64,000 nt of DNA from Pholiota molesta. Lineage: Eukaryota; Basidiomycota; Agaricomycetes; Agaricales; Strophariaceae. Under the pieces are notes generated by a model. It did not search any database and was not told where the DNA came from. It saw nothing but the letters and a program-made list of their open reading frames with translations. The stretch covers positions 113,593 to 177,592 of the forward strand of contig JACGCK010000095.1 of the NCBI GenBank assembly GCA_014925825.1, read 5' to 3'. This document shows positions 24,501 through 54,048 of this stretch, in pieces. Made by a program: the position numbers and the translations under genes. Position 1 is the stretch's first letter, and each line of letters begins with the position of its first letter.

Positions 24501-26790
24501 GTCCGGCGGGAGGAAAAAATAATAGACACTGGATAATGGGCAAAGATGAAGAAAAAAAACGGTAACTATCGACATACAGAGGTTACAGAGCTTTTCTCAC
24601 GAAAGCGACAGAGGGAAAATAGCAATTTCGTTCTAAGGGCGGCGCTCTCAGTGCCACCAGCTGATCATATCAGTGAATGAAATTTGGAAGATCCCTGTCG
24701 GCCTTTGAAGGTGAATTCATTCATGTTAGATAGTAAGCTTTACCCAAACGATTACCTCTCATTTCCGCGAGGCCTCAGCAGTTATAGGACGCGGAAATTA
24801 GTTTGGAACGCGGAAAGAGGAGCTGAATATCCCCGACGAGACAAACGCCGTGCGCCTGTCCATCGGACGACGTATATGGGCAAAGTAAAGATCTAGGCTA
24901 GAAGTCTGTTAGACACGCTGTATAGACGCTTAGGAAGCACTGCACACTTTGAGGTCACTTTGAGGTCTGTATCGCCATTCTGCAGTGGAGTCACTGCGTT
25001 TGGAGAGTGAAAAGGTCCAAGGCGGTCTGGCCGGGTGCGGCGACTTTGGAAGAACAATAGACTTCCCGTAGAGAATCCGATGGACGGGCTTTAATGAGTA
25101 GCTGCACGCACATCAGTATTGGTTGGTCGAGCGTACGTACATCCAAAAAATATTTTTGTACGACGTTCACTGTAATTCCTTGAAGACATCCGAGTTATCC
25201 GAAATCAAATTATCTGCGCCAATGGCTATAATCCCTTTCATACCGGGCGCTTCACGGCGGTCAGGACATATATGAGGTAGGGCATTATGTCTGCCAATCA
25301 GCTAAGATCAATAGCATTGCCCCGCTCCTGTCCAACGGGTTATAAAATTCTTCCCCATACCCAAGAAGATTGGCCGAAATCACCGGTGGCAGATGCTATT
25401 GATTCACGCTAGTGACGACATTGACCTCAACGGTTGATCGAGCCGCGCCATCGAGAATACAACAGAAGATGAGACTGCTGATGGGTCTGTTCGCTTTTCA
25501 TATTCAGATTAGTACCCAATCAACCTCAACAATACTAAAGATTGACTTAATTGGAAGCAGTGAGCCCTGTGTTCAGCGTACTCTAGGGTCCGGCGGCCTT
25601 GAGTACTTAATAACGTTGTGAGTACTCAGGGACTCTTCGGGAAGAGTGATCAAATCATCAAACCTTCAACCTCTCCAAGCTCAGCTTTCAGACGGCGTCC
25701 TCGAAGGATCGAGAGACATAGGCGCGGCGAGTGATTTTTAGAGTTATCCTGATCTCGCAGTGATGTGAGGGGACGGAGTCATTGAAGTCTCTCGAGTGCC
25801 AGCAGGGAGTGGAAATCACGAGGCAAGTTGCATGTTATCCTGTAGTTTGGAATATTTTTAGCAGATCATACATAGATTAAAGTAAAATGATATAAGTACC
25901 ACTGACGGTCATTCGCATTGCAGTGAGCCGATTCCTGAAGGTCGTTCAGAAGCCAACGTAAACCAGCTGAGTTTGGCACGAGGTAATCGCGGTTGGTTCG
26001 CTGCCTTTGAAGAATCTCGTGATGCTTGATGGATTGATGCCTCTGACGCGCCTGGCTGTTGGTGCTTGACGAAAACCTTTTCCATCGCCTTGCTTTCCGA
26101 AAATGTCTGGCCGCTGATACTCGTGTTGTAGGGCCCAGGGCTTCCTTTCGCTTCCACTAGAGTTGGGTCTGCCTTATCGCTCGAATGTTCGTGATTTCGA
26201 GAGATTGGGTCTTGGAATAGCTCTCAATCCACTGGATCCGTCGACACAGCTGTAATTTCCTTTACAGGCAACGTATGTCCGCCAGGACTGTAATGTCCGT
26301 CATGGTACTATCAAGCAGGTCAACAGGTGGCCTTACCTACGCTATCATCTTAGAAGCTCCTCCGGTATACGTCTACTATGCATGATTTCCGCTCCGCTCC
26401 TTTTTTAGCATTAAATCTTCGCCCTCGCCAAACTCTGGCCGTTCTCCGGATCGACTCGCCCTCGGATTCATAGTTTTCTGGTACTCCACGCACAATGTAA
26501 TGGTGTGCAACGATTCCGCGCCAGGGGTGTGTTCCTAATTTTTATGAGTTTATTTTCCCATTCTGACAAGCCGCAACGTTTACGACAGCATTTCATATCC
26601 GTTACGGAATAGTATGCTATTGAAATCATGGTTTCCTTGCTGGTCTTGTCCCGATAGACTTCATTCTGCCTCTACACAGTACCCTGGCCATGCGTATAAA
26701 AGCGGTCGAGTCTTAAGCGCTGTCCTTCAAGCCCTCACAGAAGAAACAACTCCTCAGCACATCACACCGCCTCCTCGACAGCATTCACAT
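21579..26790. other. 5.2-kb gene-poor region
   Basis: No recognisable gene family. Frames of 60-160 codons at 21.5-22.3, 24.2, 25.4 and 25.9-26.2 kb have no conserved motifs, and a hydrophobic segment at about 22.0 kb (minus) could be chance or an upstream ABCC exon. An 11-mer CACTTTGAGGT is repeated at 24945-24966. No LTRs, transposase or reverse transcriptase motifs were seen. The right end carries the TATA box of the next gene. Confidence 0.4.
26695..26701 (+). promoter_or_regulatory. TATA box of the Cys/His-rich peptide gene
   Basis: TATAAAA lies 90 bp upstream of ATG 26791. A start site about 30 bp downstream would leave a 5' leader of roughly 60 nt. It supports a promoter here and argues against the longer upstream open frame from 26614. 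Confidence 0.6.
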
Positions 26791-27083
26791 ATGAATAAAT
26801 CAAATTGCTCGTGCGAACATGGAGGCAGCGAACACTCTTTGCACCCCTGCAGCTGTCCTAACGATCGGCCGTCTACCCACCCTATGCACCACTACAAAGA
26901 CGCATTTCACCATGTTTGGTGCTACCTTTGCGAAAAATATTGCGAGAAGTGTAGCCAGGATTCGAACTCATCGGGGAGTGTCGAGTTGAATTTGCCAGAT
27001 TTCCGAGGAAAATCGTGAGTTTTATCTGATTCTTCTCATTCTGATCATCGCCCTGACCCATTTGTTCCAACAGTAAACTTTGA
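26791..27083 (+). CDS. Cys/His-rich 77-residue peptide with spliced C-terminal SKL
   Basis: Two exons (26791-27014 and 27074-27083) encode 77 residues. Eight cysteines are arranged as C-x-C at 6/8, C-x-C at 20/22, and C-x2-C-x3-C-x2-C at 44/47/51/54. Histidines cluster at 10-18 and 30-41, so metal (zinc or copper) binding is likely. The 59-bp intron has donor GTGAGT, a CTGAC branch site at 27053-27057 and acceptor CAACAG. Without splicing the frame stops at once in the donor (TCG TGA), ending ...RGKS. With splicing it ends ...RGKSKL. SKL is the canonical peroxisomal PTS1 signal, so splicing would decide location. The neighbouring convergent gene is an SCP2-type thiolase also ending in a PTS1. 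I do not recognise the family. Confidence 0.65.
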
Positions 27084-27875
27084 AGTTTGAACACACCCTG
27101 ATTCATTTCGTTCGTCCACACTCCGCTTTCTGTGGATCGATCGGGGCTCGGTACTGGTACCCACATATAGCCTATTATCCTACCAGTTTCAGGGAAACCT
27201 AGCGCAAGGACTGCACGGTTTGACCTGATAACGAAATATGCGACGAAGACCCGAACATATGCTTTTTATCTATGTATATACATACCATAAACGTCCAGAT
27301 TAGTACATATGCGCTCATATTGCCCTTTCTGTAATACGATGTATGATTGGCCTATAAGTATAGCACCTAATTGTCGAGAGTCGAATACTGGCATTTTTAT
27401 ATATATTGGATAAGTATGTGTGCGGGACATTCAAGTATAGTTGCAGTCGTTCGAGGCCTTCCCACCAGCATCGGCGGAAATGTCTTCTCATAATCTTTCT
27501 TGACACCGTTCCGAAAACAAAATTGCCAAAAGGCCTTACTTACTCACAGTACCCACACTCACTTACCACAGCATCTACTTGGGTTGTCCTTTGCGGTGAG
27601 ATTTTTTCTTCTGCGCGGATCAGGCTGTACCTGAGATTGGATTCTGCGACATTGATCAATCAGCGAAAATGCTACGAAGCTCAAGCTCCAGTGGATTCAT
27701 GCATGCAATCCCCTCCCCGAGCGAGGTCAACATAGTTATACAACACATTGCCGCGAAAGGCATGCTAAGCTTTCGAATCTTCCGGTACGCGCGAGAGTTA
27801 CATGCTCAGATACGAAGTCATAAGTGGTATACATGTTCACATGGAGAAAGGCTTCCCCTTTAATACATGGACCCC
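27084..27875. other. Tail-to-tail spacer between two PTS1-bearing genes
   Basis: No gene is recognised; the open frames here have no family features. It is the 3' flank of both neighbours. Confidence 0.45.
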
Positions 27876-29848
27876 TCAGAGTTTGGCGTGCCGAAGGACA
27901 AATTCAGAGGCGCTCTTCGATTTGACCTTGTTGACGTCGTCCAGGGTTATCGGACGACATTCGTGGGCATGATTATAGCCGAGTCTGAATGCGAAAAGTC
28001 AGCGAGGTGATTGCAGAGGCACGGTCGTTATCACTCGCCTTGTGCGTCCATCGATGCCCCCTGGTTTGAAGAATTCCGGTCGTCGGAGCAGAGAAACGAC
28101 GACTGCTCCTCCAAGGCCCACGTTGTGGACAAGACCAAGCTTTCCACGCTTGTCAGGAATGTCGAATAGCCCCGGGGCTTGCATGGGGCCCGCCCAGTTT
28201 CGTAGTTGCACTGCGATACACAACCATTCGTAAGCCACACAAATAGGAATTTTTTGATCTGGTGATCAACATACTCATTATATAGAAATGCATCCCGAGC
28301 CCAGTAGCTCCAAGAGGATGGCCCTTGGCTTCGAGTCCACCGCTCGGATTGACGACGTACTTGCCGCCATACTGACGACGCGACAACGATACGATGCGTG
28401 AATTTAATAAGAACTAGGATCGAATCTAGGAACGCACGGTATTGTCACCACGTTCCACGAGTTTATGAGCTTCGTCTACAGCGCACAGACCCAAAGCGGG
28501 ATATGTGATAAGCTGTATCAGGGCTGTCATCATGCTGATACTATTCAAAGTGCAGGATGAAGTCATACCTCATTGGCCGCGAAGCAATCATGGAGTTCAA
28601 CGACACCGACCTGATCCCGGCCCTCGCCTTCAGAAAACCCGGCATCTTTGAACGCGCGATCGGCGGCGTTCTTGGACATTTCGTAACCCACTACGTCCAT
28701 TGCGCTACGGCCCTCGAAAGTGGAAACGCCGTCAGTAGCTAGCACGTTCGCCACAATTTCAATGGCTTGATTCTCAAGGCCGTGAGCGTGTACGAAATCC
28801 TCAGAAGCAATGATACAAGCCGCAGCACCGTCCTTCGAAGTTGATGAGTCCGTTGCACCTTTGATCACAGTAATTAAGGATTACGATTACTCACTGAGGT
28901 TGGACTGCACATGAACTTGGTCAAGTTTTTGGTGATTTTGGGCGCCGCCAGGACCTTCTCAACACTCCATCCGTCTCTAAATTGTGAATAAGGGTTGTTC
29001 AACGAATGCTTGTGGTTCTTAGAAGCTTCATTTTATTTAGTATTAGGAGAATATTTGCACAACAAACCCGTATACATACCGATTTTCGCGAGATGTTCGA
29101 CATTACCACCATACTTGTCGAAATATTCTTGACCACCGTTGTCAAACAAGCGGGGGGCATTAGGCCCATGATTCTGACCCAATTCTATCTCAAGCTCTTC
29201 CGAACGCTGCGAGAAAAGGCCTATAGGCGAAGGTCGATCTGGGAAGTTGGTTCCAAGACTGCCCGGTTTCATGCGTTCGAAGCCCAAAGCAAGACCGCAT
29301 TCAATTTGGCCGTACTTGACGGCGTTATTCACTTGATAGAGAGCCGTAGACCCGGTCGAGCAATTGTTGTTTACGTTAACAATAGGAATGTGCGTCAGAC
29401 CGAGGTTGTACAATGCGCGCTGTGGGTTGGAATAGCCCTCAGCTTTCAAAGCTTGTTGAGCATCTTGGCGATGCATACCTGACCACTTGTTGAATCGCCG
29501 TAGCAATATCCTACAGCTGCGGTTTCAATCTGGTCATATGTAATACCTGTATCAGATAGAGAAGCCATTGGTCAGTGAAAGAAGCCTCGCGATAGTCCCG
29601 ATAGGAGTACGGACCAGCATCGAGGAGTGCCTTTGTGGCAGCTTCAAGGCCCATCTAACCGTGCTCTTTAGAATCCTGCCCACAATCTATGAATAGTTTA
29701 CACACATCCTCGGTAGTACGAGTAGCCCTTGGCTATATGGATGAATCAGTACGCTTCTTGGGGGATTTCTAACTAGAGAGAATGGTGTGCTAACCTTGAT
29801 GAACGCAGTGCACCCACCGCCGATGAGGAAAGTTCGTCGTGCTGGCAT
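27876..29848 (-). CDS. SCP2/SCPx-type peroxisomal thiolase
   Basis: Predicted 3-ketoacyl-CoA thiolase of the sterol-carrier-protein type, expected to cleave ketoacyl-CoA in peroxisomal beta-oxidation. The start [18 protein letters not shown] and PRATRTTED fit the family. The nucleophilic cysteine is in [14 protein letters not shown], and the histidine motif is [14 protein letters not shown]. The C-terminal block [17 protein letters not shown] is also typical. The protein ends RHAKL; AKL is a PTS1 signal. About nine short introns interrupt it. The last intron (28038-27985) has a GC donor (AAG|GCGAGT), required to join DGRTR to [10 protein letters not shown]. There is no C-terminal SCP2 lipid-transfer domain. 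The protein should be about 450-470 residues. Confidence 0.9.
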
Positions 29849-30249
29849 GATTGCTTGTGATGGTTACCGAGGGGAATAGGTTACAAGTATAAGAAGAATG
29901 GATTGTGGGGAAGCAACTAGAGAAATCATGGGTTTATAAATGATGTTGGCGTCTGAGTGAGCAGATGACTTTTTGGCCCAAGCATGTTTATACGAAAGCA
30001 TCAACATTCGGCTTTTGTATTGCCGGTACTTACGTACGCCAGAGTAACAGGCTGGTAACAGGTTGGCTGCTGTGAGGCCGTAGCGAGGTTCAAAAAAACA
30101 ATCTTTTAAGCTGAAGGGTAGTGCAGAGCAAGTCGGAAAATGTTGTATTACATTGGCAAGTGAGCTAACAGAAACTCTGAAACTGTAATAATTTTGGATG
30201 CAGAGCGCAACATGACAGAGGATTTTTTCTATGGGGAAATGGAACGCGT
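29849..30249. other. Intergenic, thiolase promoter side
   Basis: No coding features. It lies between the thiolase start and the A49 stop codon, both on the minus strand. Confidence 0.5.
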
Positions 30250-49951: not shown

Positions 49952-50761
49952 CTAGTAAATGCCAGGAACAAGTCGATATGGAACCTTCTTCGCCCATTCG
50001 TCCCACTTCTTCCCGAATTCTTTCTTCAGCATTTCATCCTCCACTATAAGTCTACGGTAATACATGACCAATATTGAACCCACTGCGTAGAGGGCGGGAA
50101 AAATAACAAGCCATGTTGCCGTCTTCGTATAAACCTTGCTTTCTCTTAGCCATGCTCCCGATGATGCATGCCATACGACGAGCCCGACCTGCACTAAGTC
50201 ACCCCCGATGTAGGCTGGATGGCGAACGATGCTGTACGGGCCTGTCGTGACGAGATGGTGGTTCTGAAGGAGGGATACGTGATAGGTGAAGTGTCGTCCT
50301 AGTTCTCGGTAGCACGCATAACGGATCAGACTTCCCAGCATGACTGAAATTCCTCCAATAGTTCTCGAAGGTGACAAAAAGACGGACATCCCTTCTTTGT
50401 TGTTAGGAAGGAAAAGGTGCGGAATGTTATTGTTCAGCCACTGTGTGAAGTCTGTCGAGGGGGACTTCAAAACCAATTCGGACACTAAAATAATGAAGAG
50501 TTCGATCGTTGCATGGGCCCAACAGGAGTACTAGAACAAGGGCAAAAGCGAAAGTTGTCTTATCTCTGTAAGTAGTTCTCTGGAAATATGTAAGTGGCTC
50601 ACTTTTAGTATAAGGAGTGCAATATAGAGAATCCCGGGATAATCTCCCATGACACGGCGGTTCTTAGGCGCCGTTGGAGTAGGAGACGTCAAGGAAACAT
50701 GGATGCCTACTGCCACGGAAATGATTAGGCTGAGATACAATGCTTGGGACATGTAAAGCAT
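49952..50761 (-). CDS. Isoprenylcysteine methyltransferase-like, copy 1
   Basis: Ste14/ICMT-family membrane methyltransferase, expected in the ER, where the family carboxyl-methylates prenylated C-terminal cysteines. Two exons (50761-50603, 50530-49952) give 245 residues, close to yeast Ste14 (239). Exon 1 carries a hydrophobic segment and TSPTPTAPKNRR. Exon 2 carries YSCWAHATIELFIILV, the RYACYRELGRHFTYHV helix, LVTTGPYSIVRHPAYIGG (the family's AdoMet/substrate motif), and a C-terminal block EDEMLKKEFGKKWDEWAKKV then PYRLVPGIY. First of four tandem copies; the most divergent of them, with exon 2 one codon shorter. Confidence 0.85.
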
Positions 50762-51032
50762 TTGGGGTGAGCAGTTAATCTACTAAACCTCTTTATAGTA
50801 TTCTCTTTCCCAAGCGTCATGGCTGAGAATCTATCACTGATTCATAAGGTTTATGCAGTACCATTCTGACTGGGAATACTGTTCCAAGGGAGGCAGTTGT
50901 TTTTTTGAACCCTCAAGCTGACTGCGTATGTCTGAAATTCACTATCAAATGTACAAGATGTCACAGCAAAGGGGAGCTTCTTCTATATTATATATGGTGA
51001 CCATCTGAGCATGCAATCATGTGTTCTACCTA

Positions 51033-51833
51033 TCAGTAAATCCCAGGAATGAGTCGGTATGGAACCCTTCTTGCCCATACATCCCATTGCTTTCCAAACT
51101 CTTTCTTTAACATTTTGTCCTCCTCTTTAGGCCTTCTAACTACTATAGTAGCGAATATACCCATAGTTATAAACATTGGGACGATTCCGATCCATGTGAT
51201 TGGCTTGGTATAAAACCTGCTTTGCCGGATCCACGCCCCTAACGTTGAGTGCCAAAGAACAACGCCGATGTGTTGGATAACTCCACCGGAATAAGATGGG
51301 TGCCGAACGATGCTATAGGGGCCTGTCGTAACGAGACTGTGGCCGTCGAGAATAGCGACATGGAATGTGAAGTGCCGTCCCAATTCACGATAGCATAAAT
51401 AGCGAATGGTGCTCCCGAAGATTATCAGAAATGCGCCTAGCATCCTTAATGGTGGGAAAGATATGGTTGTATCGTTCCCTACGGAAGTGGGCAGAAAGTA
51501 ATGGAAGACAGCGTTGTTCGCCCATTGCACCGCAGTAGATTGTGGAAATTGTTGAGCGATGGTAGGTAGGACAAGGATGAGGATTTCAATTATACCATGA
51601 ATCCAGCAGGAACACTTCGTCGTTAAGTTGACGCTATCAGTATGCGCTGAGTTGTAGCAGAAGCGAGGATAATTGACTCACTTTGTAAAAAGGAAATGCA
51701 AGGTTGATTATTGACATGTCGTTTAACCTCCGCCTTTCCTTGGATGGTGGGGTGTTGGGGATGTAAGCGAGACATGAACGCTAATTGGCACAGACAGGAT
51801 CAGCAATAACGCTGAAAACATCATACGTAGCAT
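51033..51833 (-). pseudogene. ICMT-like copy 2, frameshift in exon 1
   Basis: Exon 2 (51614-51033) is intact, 582 bp, with RYLCYRELGRHFTFHV, LVTTGPYSIVRHPSYSGG and KMLKKEFGKQWDVWARRVPY. Exon 1 starts MLRMMFSALLLILSVPIS as in copy 3. A one-base deletion near 51750 (relative to copy 3) puts TSPTP and PSKERRRLND in different frames and creates an early stop. An internal ATG (MSIINLAFPFYK) could still yield a protein lacking the first hydrophobic segment. The intron donor (GTGAGT) and acceptor (CGAAG) are the same as in copy 3. It is a recent break, or a single-base sequence error. Confidence 0.75.
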
Positions 51834-52192
51834 GAGAGTAGGTACTACGCGTAGCCTGAGAGCAGTTACTTTTCAGAACCGCGCTATTCGCTTCCTTCTC
51901 AGAGAAAATTAAAGAAAATTAAAGCTCGCAGGCTTTCAATTATCTGTTTCGATTCTCCTTCATATTACTGCATGACAGCATCAGCAATATTTCTGGAAAC
52001 ATGAGAGTAGTTGATCTGTTTCTGTATGATACTTTCTCAAGCGGCTGAGAGTACTATTTATATGCAAGTCGTTTTCTTAATTCTCAAGCTCAATGCATAT
52101 TTATGTAAAGAATTCGCCAACCAAGGGGATGTTTCTCTGGAAAATATTCGGTGACTATCTCATGAGCACAGTGCAATCATGTGTTCTACCTA
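51834..52192. other. Intergenic with ICMT-like relic and duplicated flank
   Basis: A stretch at about 51875-51960 (GCTATTCGCTTCCTT, then GTTTCGATTCTCCTT) is repeated at about 53105-53160 upstream of copy 3, showing that the duplicated unit includes 5' flank. An exon-1 relic lies at 51976-52002. Confidence 0.6.
51976..52002 (-). pseudogene. Relic of ICMT-like exon 1
   Basis: Reading the minus strand from ATG 52002 gives MFPEILLML, nearly identical to the start of copy 3 (MFPAILLIL), then similarity ends. The flanking GAAACATGAGAGTAG is also shared with copy 3. This is the stump of another tandem unit. Confidence 0.65.
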
Positions 52193-52982
52193 TTAGTAAA
52201 TGCCAGGAACGAGTCGGTATGGAACCCTTCTCGCCCATTCATTCCACTTCTTCCCAAACTCTTTCTTCAACATTTTGTCCTCCTCCATAGGCCTCCTAAC
52301 GAGCATACCGGCGAATGAGCACATACCAATAAGCGTTGGGACGATTGCAATCCATGCAACTGGCTTAGTATAAAACCCGCTTTGCCGGAGCCATGCTCCT
52401 GACGTGGAGTGCCAAAGAAGAGAGCCGATGCTTAGGAGAATCCCACCGGTATAAGAAGGGTGTCGGACAATGTTATAGGGGCCCGTCGTAACGAGGCTAT
52501 GGTTATCGAGAAGAGCGACGTGGTAGGTGAAATGTCGTCCCAATTCGCGATAGCATAAATACCGAATGGTGCTCCCGGAGAACATCAGAAAGGCACCCAG
52601 CATTCTTAGTGGAGGGAAAAATATGGTTTTATCTTTTCCGAGGGAAGACGGCAGAAAGTAATCGAAGAAACAGTCGTTGGCCCATTGAGCTGCGGTGGAT
52701 TGTGGAAATTGTCGAGCGACAGTAGGGAGCACAAGGACGAGGATTTCAATTACGCCATGAATCCAGCAGAAACACTTCGTCGTCAAATCGATCCTATGAG
52801 TACGCGCTTTGTAGCAGAGGCTAGAATGATTGACTCACTTTGCAGATGTAGACTGAAATTCTGGTAGCTATTGCAAAGTCATTTAACCTTCGCTGCTCCT
52901 TGGGTGCTGGAGGTGTTGGGGGTGTAAGCGCGACATAAGCACTAATTGGCACAGACAGGATCAGCAATATTGCTGGAAACAT
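52193..52982 (-). CDS. Isoprenylcysteine methyltransferase-like, copy 3
   Basis: Two exons (52982-52839, 52774-52193) give 241 residues with no frame break. Exon 1 is MFPAILLILSVPISAYVALT then PPTPPAPKEQRR. Exon 2 starts CFCWIHGVIEILVLVLPTVA and holds RYLCYRELGRHFTYHV, LVTTGPYNIVRHPSYTGG and EDKMLKKEFGKKWNEWARRV, ending PYRLVPGIY. It is the closest relative of copy 2, including introns and flanks, so these two are the youngest duplication of the array. Confidence 0.86.
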
Positions 52983-53261
52983 GAGAGTAGGGAATCAGAG
53001 GGAATCAGGCGTAGAGCTAGTCTCTTAAAACAGACCTTATAAATCAAATGATAGTCGATTTGATATAATGCGTAGAGCAGCTGATAAAGTTCCTTTTCAG
53101 AACCACGCTATTCGCTTCCTTTTCAGAAACTTTTTTCGTCACTTGTTTCGATTCTCCTTTATTTTAAGTACTGCATTGCTAGTACGGAGTATGTCAGCTG
53201 AACGGGCACTTAGTGGAGTGATCAACATATGCATGCTCTTGATCACTGTGACTAGTAAGTA

Positions 53262-54048
53262 CTAGTAAACGCCAGGGATGATTCGATAAGGAACTCTCTT
53301 TGCCCATTCATCCCACTTCTTCCCAAATTCTTTCTTCAGCAGTTCATCCTCTATCTGAGGTCTCACCATTATACCCAAAATGATTGATCCGCCTATAACC
53401 ATGATTGCTGGAAGGAATGCTGCGACCCACACAATTGTGTTCATATACAGCCCGCTCTGCCGGAGCCACGATCCAGGAGTGGTATGCCATAGAATAATCC
53501 CTATATTCACGATCACTGCGGCGGTATAGGAGGGATGTCGAACGATACTATAGGGACCCGTCGTGATAAGGGCATGCTTTTCGAGAAGAGCGAGATGGAA
53601 TGTGAACTGTCGGCCCAATTCACGAAAACACATGTATCTAATGGTGCTGCCAGATATAATGAAAAATGCCCCTACTATCCGCAGCGGAGGAAAGAAGATA
53701 GCATTGTCGTTTCTAATGGATGAGGGTAGAAAGAGTTCGGAAGAGGTATTGTTGATCCAATGAATGATGAAATAGGATGGCAGTTGTCGAGCGACATCAG
53801 GTAGGACCAGCATTTCGATTAGGCAATGAATCCAACAGGAATACTTCGAGATGTAAGTACTAGACGACAAGCGAATTTGAATACTTTGATTGACATACTT
53901 TGTAAACGTCCGCTGCCAACATTATAACCATAGTAAAAAACACATGCGCTACCCGTCGTTCCTTGGGTGCCGCGGGTGTAGGAGATGTAAATGCAACATG
54001 GGTCCCAAAGGCTACGGAGAAGATCATAAGTAGTGCTGCAAACATCAT
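53262..54048 (-). CDS. Isoprenylcysteine methyltransferase-like, copy 4
   Basis: Two exons (54048-53899, 53843-53262) give 243 residues. Exon 1 is MMFAALLMIFSVAFGTHVAF then TSPTPAAPKERR. Exon 2 starts YSCWIHCLIEMLVLPDVARQ and holds RYMCFRELGRQFTFHL, LITTGPYSIVRHPSYTAA and EDELLKKEFGKKWDEWAKRV, ending PYRIIPGVY. The frame is open throughout. Hydrophobic segments in both exons suggest five or six membrane passes, as in Ste14. Substrates of these extra copies are unknown; the fungus presumably also has a canonical STE14. Confidence 0.86.

Follow-up and report, generated by a model that had tools for sequence, protein, structure and literature searches.

The locus lies in a 64,000-nucleotide stretch of the Pholiota molesta genome (the window; contig C621, positions 113593-177592, from an assembly of 65.6 Mb in 625 contigs). 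It carries a small gene, predicted to have two exons, for a Cys/His-rich mini-protein, and a convergent neighbour encoding a thiolase whose stop lies 792 bases beyond that of the mini-gene (Table 1).

Table 1. Features of the mini-protein locus, numbered by position in the window.
Feature	Position	Strand	Basis
TATA-box-like TATAAAAG, putative core promoter	26695..26702	+	Sequence; function presumed
Exon 1: encodes residues 1-74 of the Cys/His-rich mini-protein, with two bases of codon 75	26791..27014	+	Sequence, homologues
Phase-2 intron, 59 nt, GTGAGT...CTGAC...CAACAG	27015..27073	+	Signals and conserved KSKL end; splicing predicted
Branch-point-like CTGAC, with 17 nt from its A to the intron end	27053..27057	+	Sequence; function presumed
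Exon 2: completes Ser75, then Lys-Leu and the TGA stop; SKL PTS1	27074..27083	+	Sequence; C-terminus conserved in P0002
Thiolase gene, convergent neighbour; start codon presumed	27876..29848	-	Pfam Thiolase_N

The thiolase assignment comes from a Thiolase_N match to one of the two exon frames tested, the other frame being without any match, and from its sequence features we take the enzyme to be of the SCP2 type. Its last intron is of the GC-AG class (27985-28038, reverse strand; GCGAGT...TTCAG), the exon upstream of it ends in GIDGRTR, and the last exon ends in LRHAKL, of which AKL is also a PTS1. With that intron retained, the frame continues for twelve codons to a stop (27876-28246, reverse strand). 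The two genes may thus form an adjoining pair with PTS1 ends, which we offer as a lead and no more. CCTCGG boxes, counted on either strand, are found at 26460, upstream of the mini-gene, and at 29867, just upstream of the thiolase start. FarA/FarB presumably recognize this motif as a fatty-acid response element in fungal fatty-acid genes; with 27 such sites in 64 kb it was set aside as a locus-specific signal, and we claim no enrichment. Elsewhere in the window, four similar-looking membrane-protein frames stand in tandem at 49952-53921 (reverse strand). The one tested, 51033-51677, gave Pfam matches to ICMT, PEMT and ERG4_ERG24, so that methyltransferase-like genes may form an array here. A frame for an FAD-dependent oxidoreductase (DAO) occupies 1801-2916, also on the reverse strand.

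Exon 1 of the mini-gene runs for 224 nt from its ATG and exon 2 consists of ten bases, as read directly from the sequence and spliced by script. With the intron removed, GGAAAATC is followed directly by TAAACTTTGA, and the product has 77 residues, MNKSNCSCEHGG...FRGKSKL*, ending in GKSKL. The unspliced product has 75 residues and ends in GKS, its stop being the TGA at 27016-27018 inside the donor GTGAGT. An earlier note on this DNA had proposed just this splice and had pointed to the overlap between the donor and the stop of the unspliced frame; re-reading and re-splicing bore out the splice to the base, and the overlapping TGA was read directly. The new C-terminus is SKL, the prototype PTS1. 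It satisfies the formula [SA][KR][LMI] given for the C-terminal signal (PMC12316961), in agreement with the earlier proposal that splicing creates a canonical PTS1. The ATG lies 96 bases past the start of the TATA-like box, a direct scan found no other ATG between 26700 and 26790, and the start of the only independent homologue aligns with it. The peptide contains eight cysteines, arranged as C6/C8, C20/C22, C44/C47 and C51/C54, and eight histidines, so that Cys makes up about 10% of the residues and His is as frequent. From the splice signals, together with the conserved KSKL end described below, we infer that 27015-27073 is spliced in vivo.

Three protein searches, covering about 5.8 billion proteins and including a two-sequence profile and a longer frame of 134 residues as queries, each returned the same two proteins. 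One of these (P0001) is that 134-residue frame, taken from a JGI record whose contig measures 1265 bases. It corresponds to the mini-protein gene read without splicing and extended upstream, and it ends in GKS. The source of the record is probably a metagenome. The other (P0002) is a hypothetical protein of 82 residues from Pholiota conissans, BDN70DRAFT_885649, with 53% identity over 91% of the query (E 6.5e-16). It begins at the corresponding Met and keeps C6, C8, C20, C22, C44, C47, C51 and C54, as well as seven of the eight aligned histidines, H34 being replaced by Ile. The P. conissans protein, known here as a protein only, is thus like the window protein in length class, in its start, in its Cys and His positions and in its KSKL end, but differs in having CxxC rather than CxC as the first pair, two extra cysteines and a longer linker. 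We also looked for the DNA of its gene in viral and prokaryote contigs, where a fungal gene would be unexpected, and confirmed none of the 76 and 38 pattern matches obtained.

Past the last Cys and up to the closing R-x-KSKL the two proteins share little, yet the C-terminus reads LRFKSKL in P. conissans and RGKSKL in the window protein; in both species the residues at -4 and -6 are basic (K and R, respectively). Chance agreement of the four final residues would have a probability of about 2.6e-5, taking a per-site identity of 0.071 from the pooled composition of the compared sequences and treating sites as independent. A diverged linker followed by an unchanged PTS1 is the pattern that would be expected of a targeting signal under selection, as judged from one homologue. 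Because the P. conissans protein ends in KSKL, the spliced form is the conserved form. The intron gains support in turn, since SKL was predicted from the DNA independently of that protein and splicing of 27015-27073 restores the conserved end. The earlier note had named homologues lacking SKL as evidence that would count against it; conservation of the C-terminus among independent homologues stands at one of one, P0001 being the same gene in its unspliced frame.

A second copy of the locus is present in the assembly at C244:33962-34412, 98% identical over the stretch searched, and the similarity continues into the thiolase gene as far as the fetched locus reaches. The ATG, the exon and intron lengths and the SKL end are all kept. 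The two copies differ at 3 of 224 bases in exon 1 (one silent change, L46V and E48K), at 1 of 59 in the intron and at none of the ten in exon 2; in the flanks the counts are 2 of 320 on the 5' side and 10 of 407 on the 3' side. Exon 1 is therefore no more similar between the copies than the 5' flank and gives no sign of protein constraint, on numbers too few to weigh selection in either direction. The C244 copy appears to be the second haplotype, from the other nucleus of a dikaryon. Residues 46 and 48 of P0001 are V and K, as in C244, which makes it probable that the JGI record comes from this fungus or one closely related to it. Among the best candidates scored, protein searches of the assembly for further paralogues gave the two copies only, and the exact HPC-x-CPND DNA pattern occurred at no other place in the assembly. 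An additional exact match to the HHVWC pattern, at C146:55828-55851, has no Cys/His core in its surroundings and was taken to be an out-of-frame reading of some other gene.

No Pfam family scored above cutoff for either the window protein or its P. conissans homologue, and no NCBIfam model matched. Pfam matches at E 0.028-0.24 fell below cutoff and none was common to both homologues; these were set aside as chance. A PDB search with the single sequence gave no matches, and a PDB profile match to adenylylsulfate reductase (E 0.021) was likewise taken as chance. With its paired cysteines, conserved histidines and an H-x2-C-x2-C motif at 41-47, the protein resembles the RING, LIM, MYND and B-box zinc fingers. 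However, the window protein fits none of the four spacing patterns tried, and neither do the other two of the three sequences compared. It also resembles the metallothioneins (PF00131) in being small, Cys-rich and probably metal-binding, but its score, 11.9 bits, falls short of the cutoff of 23, it has only 10% Cys with His equal to Cys, and it carries aromatic residues in its conserved core. An AlphaFold model of the 75-residue unspliced form, made with three sequences, had a mean pLDDT of 43 and was unusable. Among the titles and abstract openings of the matches listed from open-licence papers, we found no description of a similar fungal Cys-rich or small PTS1 protein, which is weak evidence of absence, and the locus prefix BDN70DRAFT was not mentioned in the open-licence literature found. 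The earlier remark that no described family like this peptide was known agrees with what Pfam, NCBIfam and PDB returned. A core of about fifty residues in which eight Cys and seven His are invariant makes metal binding the most likely property of the mini-protein. The suggestion that the peptide may carry metal keeps its factual part, the eight paired Cys and the eight His as counted, and metal binding itself is probable.

Taken together, this locus most likely holds a genuine gene that is spliced and encodes a Cys/His-rich mini-protein, so far undescribed, whose PTS1 is conserved. We consider it reasonably probable that an ordinarily spliced gene yields a 77-residue, metal-holding protein that is imported into the peroxisome matrix by its KSKL end, with splicing in vivo, metal binding and import each predicted from sequence. 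Removal of the 59-nt intron would be a routine step of expression, and the ten-base last exon would complete the PTS1 (KSKL). The conserved Cys and His clusters would probably hold a fold around zinc or copper, and the Pex5 receptor would bind the C-terminus and bring about import into the matrix, where its role might be, as a guess, that of a small partner protein that holds metal or serves a structural purpose. In the basidiomycete Ustilago maydis, mCherry-SKL is reported to enter peroxisomes and the enzyme um03158 to end in KSKL as well (PMC9133605). The starting points of this reading, namely the splice signals, the conserved residues and the conserved KSKL end, are observed directly. Counting against it are the single independent homologue obtained from about 5.8 billion proteins, the low mean pLDDT of the model, the failure to match any of the metal-site patterns tried or any Pfam family above cutoff, and the two genomic copies, whose few differences show no protein-level constraint.

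Could the locus be no gene at all, its tag arising from a chance open frame and a chance intron? The frame is short, and neither Pfam (above cutoff) nor NCBIfam recognizes it. We therefore scanned the window for donor-acceptor-frame combinations behind an ATG-started frame of at least 50 codons, with a stop at most 12 codons past the join; here the mini-gene frame was taken to start at the upstream ATG, position 26614, and hence gave 136 residues. An end of the form [SAC][KRH][LM] appeared in one of five combinations with a strict donor and in one of ten with a looser donor, in both cases the mini-gene intron, and in 3 of 124 with any GT donor. Among 4461 six-frame stops in the window, SKL precedes 4 and [SAC][KRH][LM] precedes 10, and none of the 634 stop-to-stop frames of at least 50 codons has such an end. 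Added to these counts, the conserved C-terminus of the homologue means that chance is not a reasonable explanation. An annotated homologue at the identity and E-value given above, with conserved Cys and His, contradicts a chance origin, and only the splice restores the C-terminus that this homologue conserves; we regard a chance origin as extremely improbable. It is far easier to imagine, although still unlikely, that the gene exists and its intron is spliced, with KSKL going unused for import, for example because the C-terminus is buried or bound to metal. Residues before the PTS1 tripeptide are reported to affect recognition too (PMC12316961, PMC9133605), and the peroxisomal localization proposed here rests on sequence. 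Against this, the PTS1 follows a linker of variable sequence, and the two species have the same two basic residues in front of it.

The earlier note went further and proposed that intron retention gives a cytosolic form and splicing a peroxisomal one. On such a reading the cell would set the ratio between a 75-residue cytosolic form and the peroxisomal form. In favour of this, the retained frame stops at once and lacks the last two residues only, which would leave the whole Cys/His domain in both forms. Splice-made peroxisomal forms have been reported in fungi (PMC4207609, PMC3798809), where differential splicing yields peroxisomal GAPDH in Ustilago, PGK in Aspergillus and malate dehydrogenase in Yarrowia (PMC3798809), and in the agaric Coprinopsis cinerea intron retention and alternative 5' and 3' sites are described as the major splicing events (PMC10532568). 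The gene is like the dual-targeted enzymes of the Freitag type (Ustilago GAPDH, Aspergillus PGK) in that the peroxisomal signal is confined to one splice form. It is unlike them in that those are established enzymes of the cytosol that have been reported from both compartments (PMC4207609, PMC3798809), whereas the window protein is of no known enzyme kind and one isoform is predicted. Moreover, the anatomy is what would be expected of any phase-2 GTGA intron before a PTS1. A phase-2 intron that starts with GTGA reads NNG TGA, so the overlap of stop and donor follows as a matter of logic, and any PTS1 encoded behind a last intron is lost when that intron is retained. Both features being automatic, they leave the proposed division between retention and splicing unsupported. 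The donor, branch site and acceptor are all canonical, and the sole annotated homologue is the SKL form, though its annotation shows a single form only. Around the intron, a scan for GT[AG]NG donors with acceptors 45-120 nt apart gave one alternative combination, with an acceptor ending at 27085, whose product ends in LNTP and loses the PTS1. A PTS1 made by stop-codon readthrough was not found, the retained frame ending in VNFEV past its stop. A regulated switch is possible but, with nothing found that favours it in particular, we rate it as unlikely, slightly more so than an unused KSKL. The fuller version, in which keeping or removing the 59-nt last intron would shift a metal-binding mini-protein between the cytosol and the peroxisome, with the splicing state setting the peroxisomal supply, appears slightly less likely again.

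Returning to the reading we prefer, an ordinarily spliced gene with a PTS1, its most immediate meaning concerns how such proteins are found: overlooking a ten-base last exon loses them, and the other database frame of this gene indeed stops at GKS. A splicing switch, if true, would add a case outside metabolic enzymes and is unproven. To our knowledge, little is known of how peroxisomes are supplied with metal. If import and metal binding both hold true, the mini-protein would add to the peroxisomal matrix a family without description in the databases searched.
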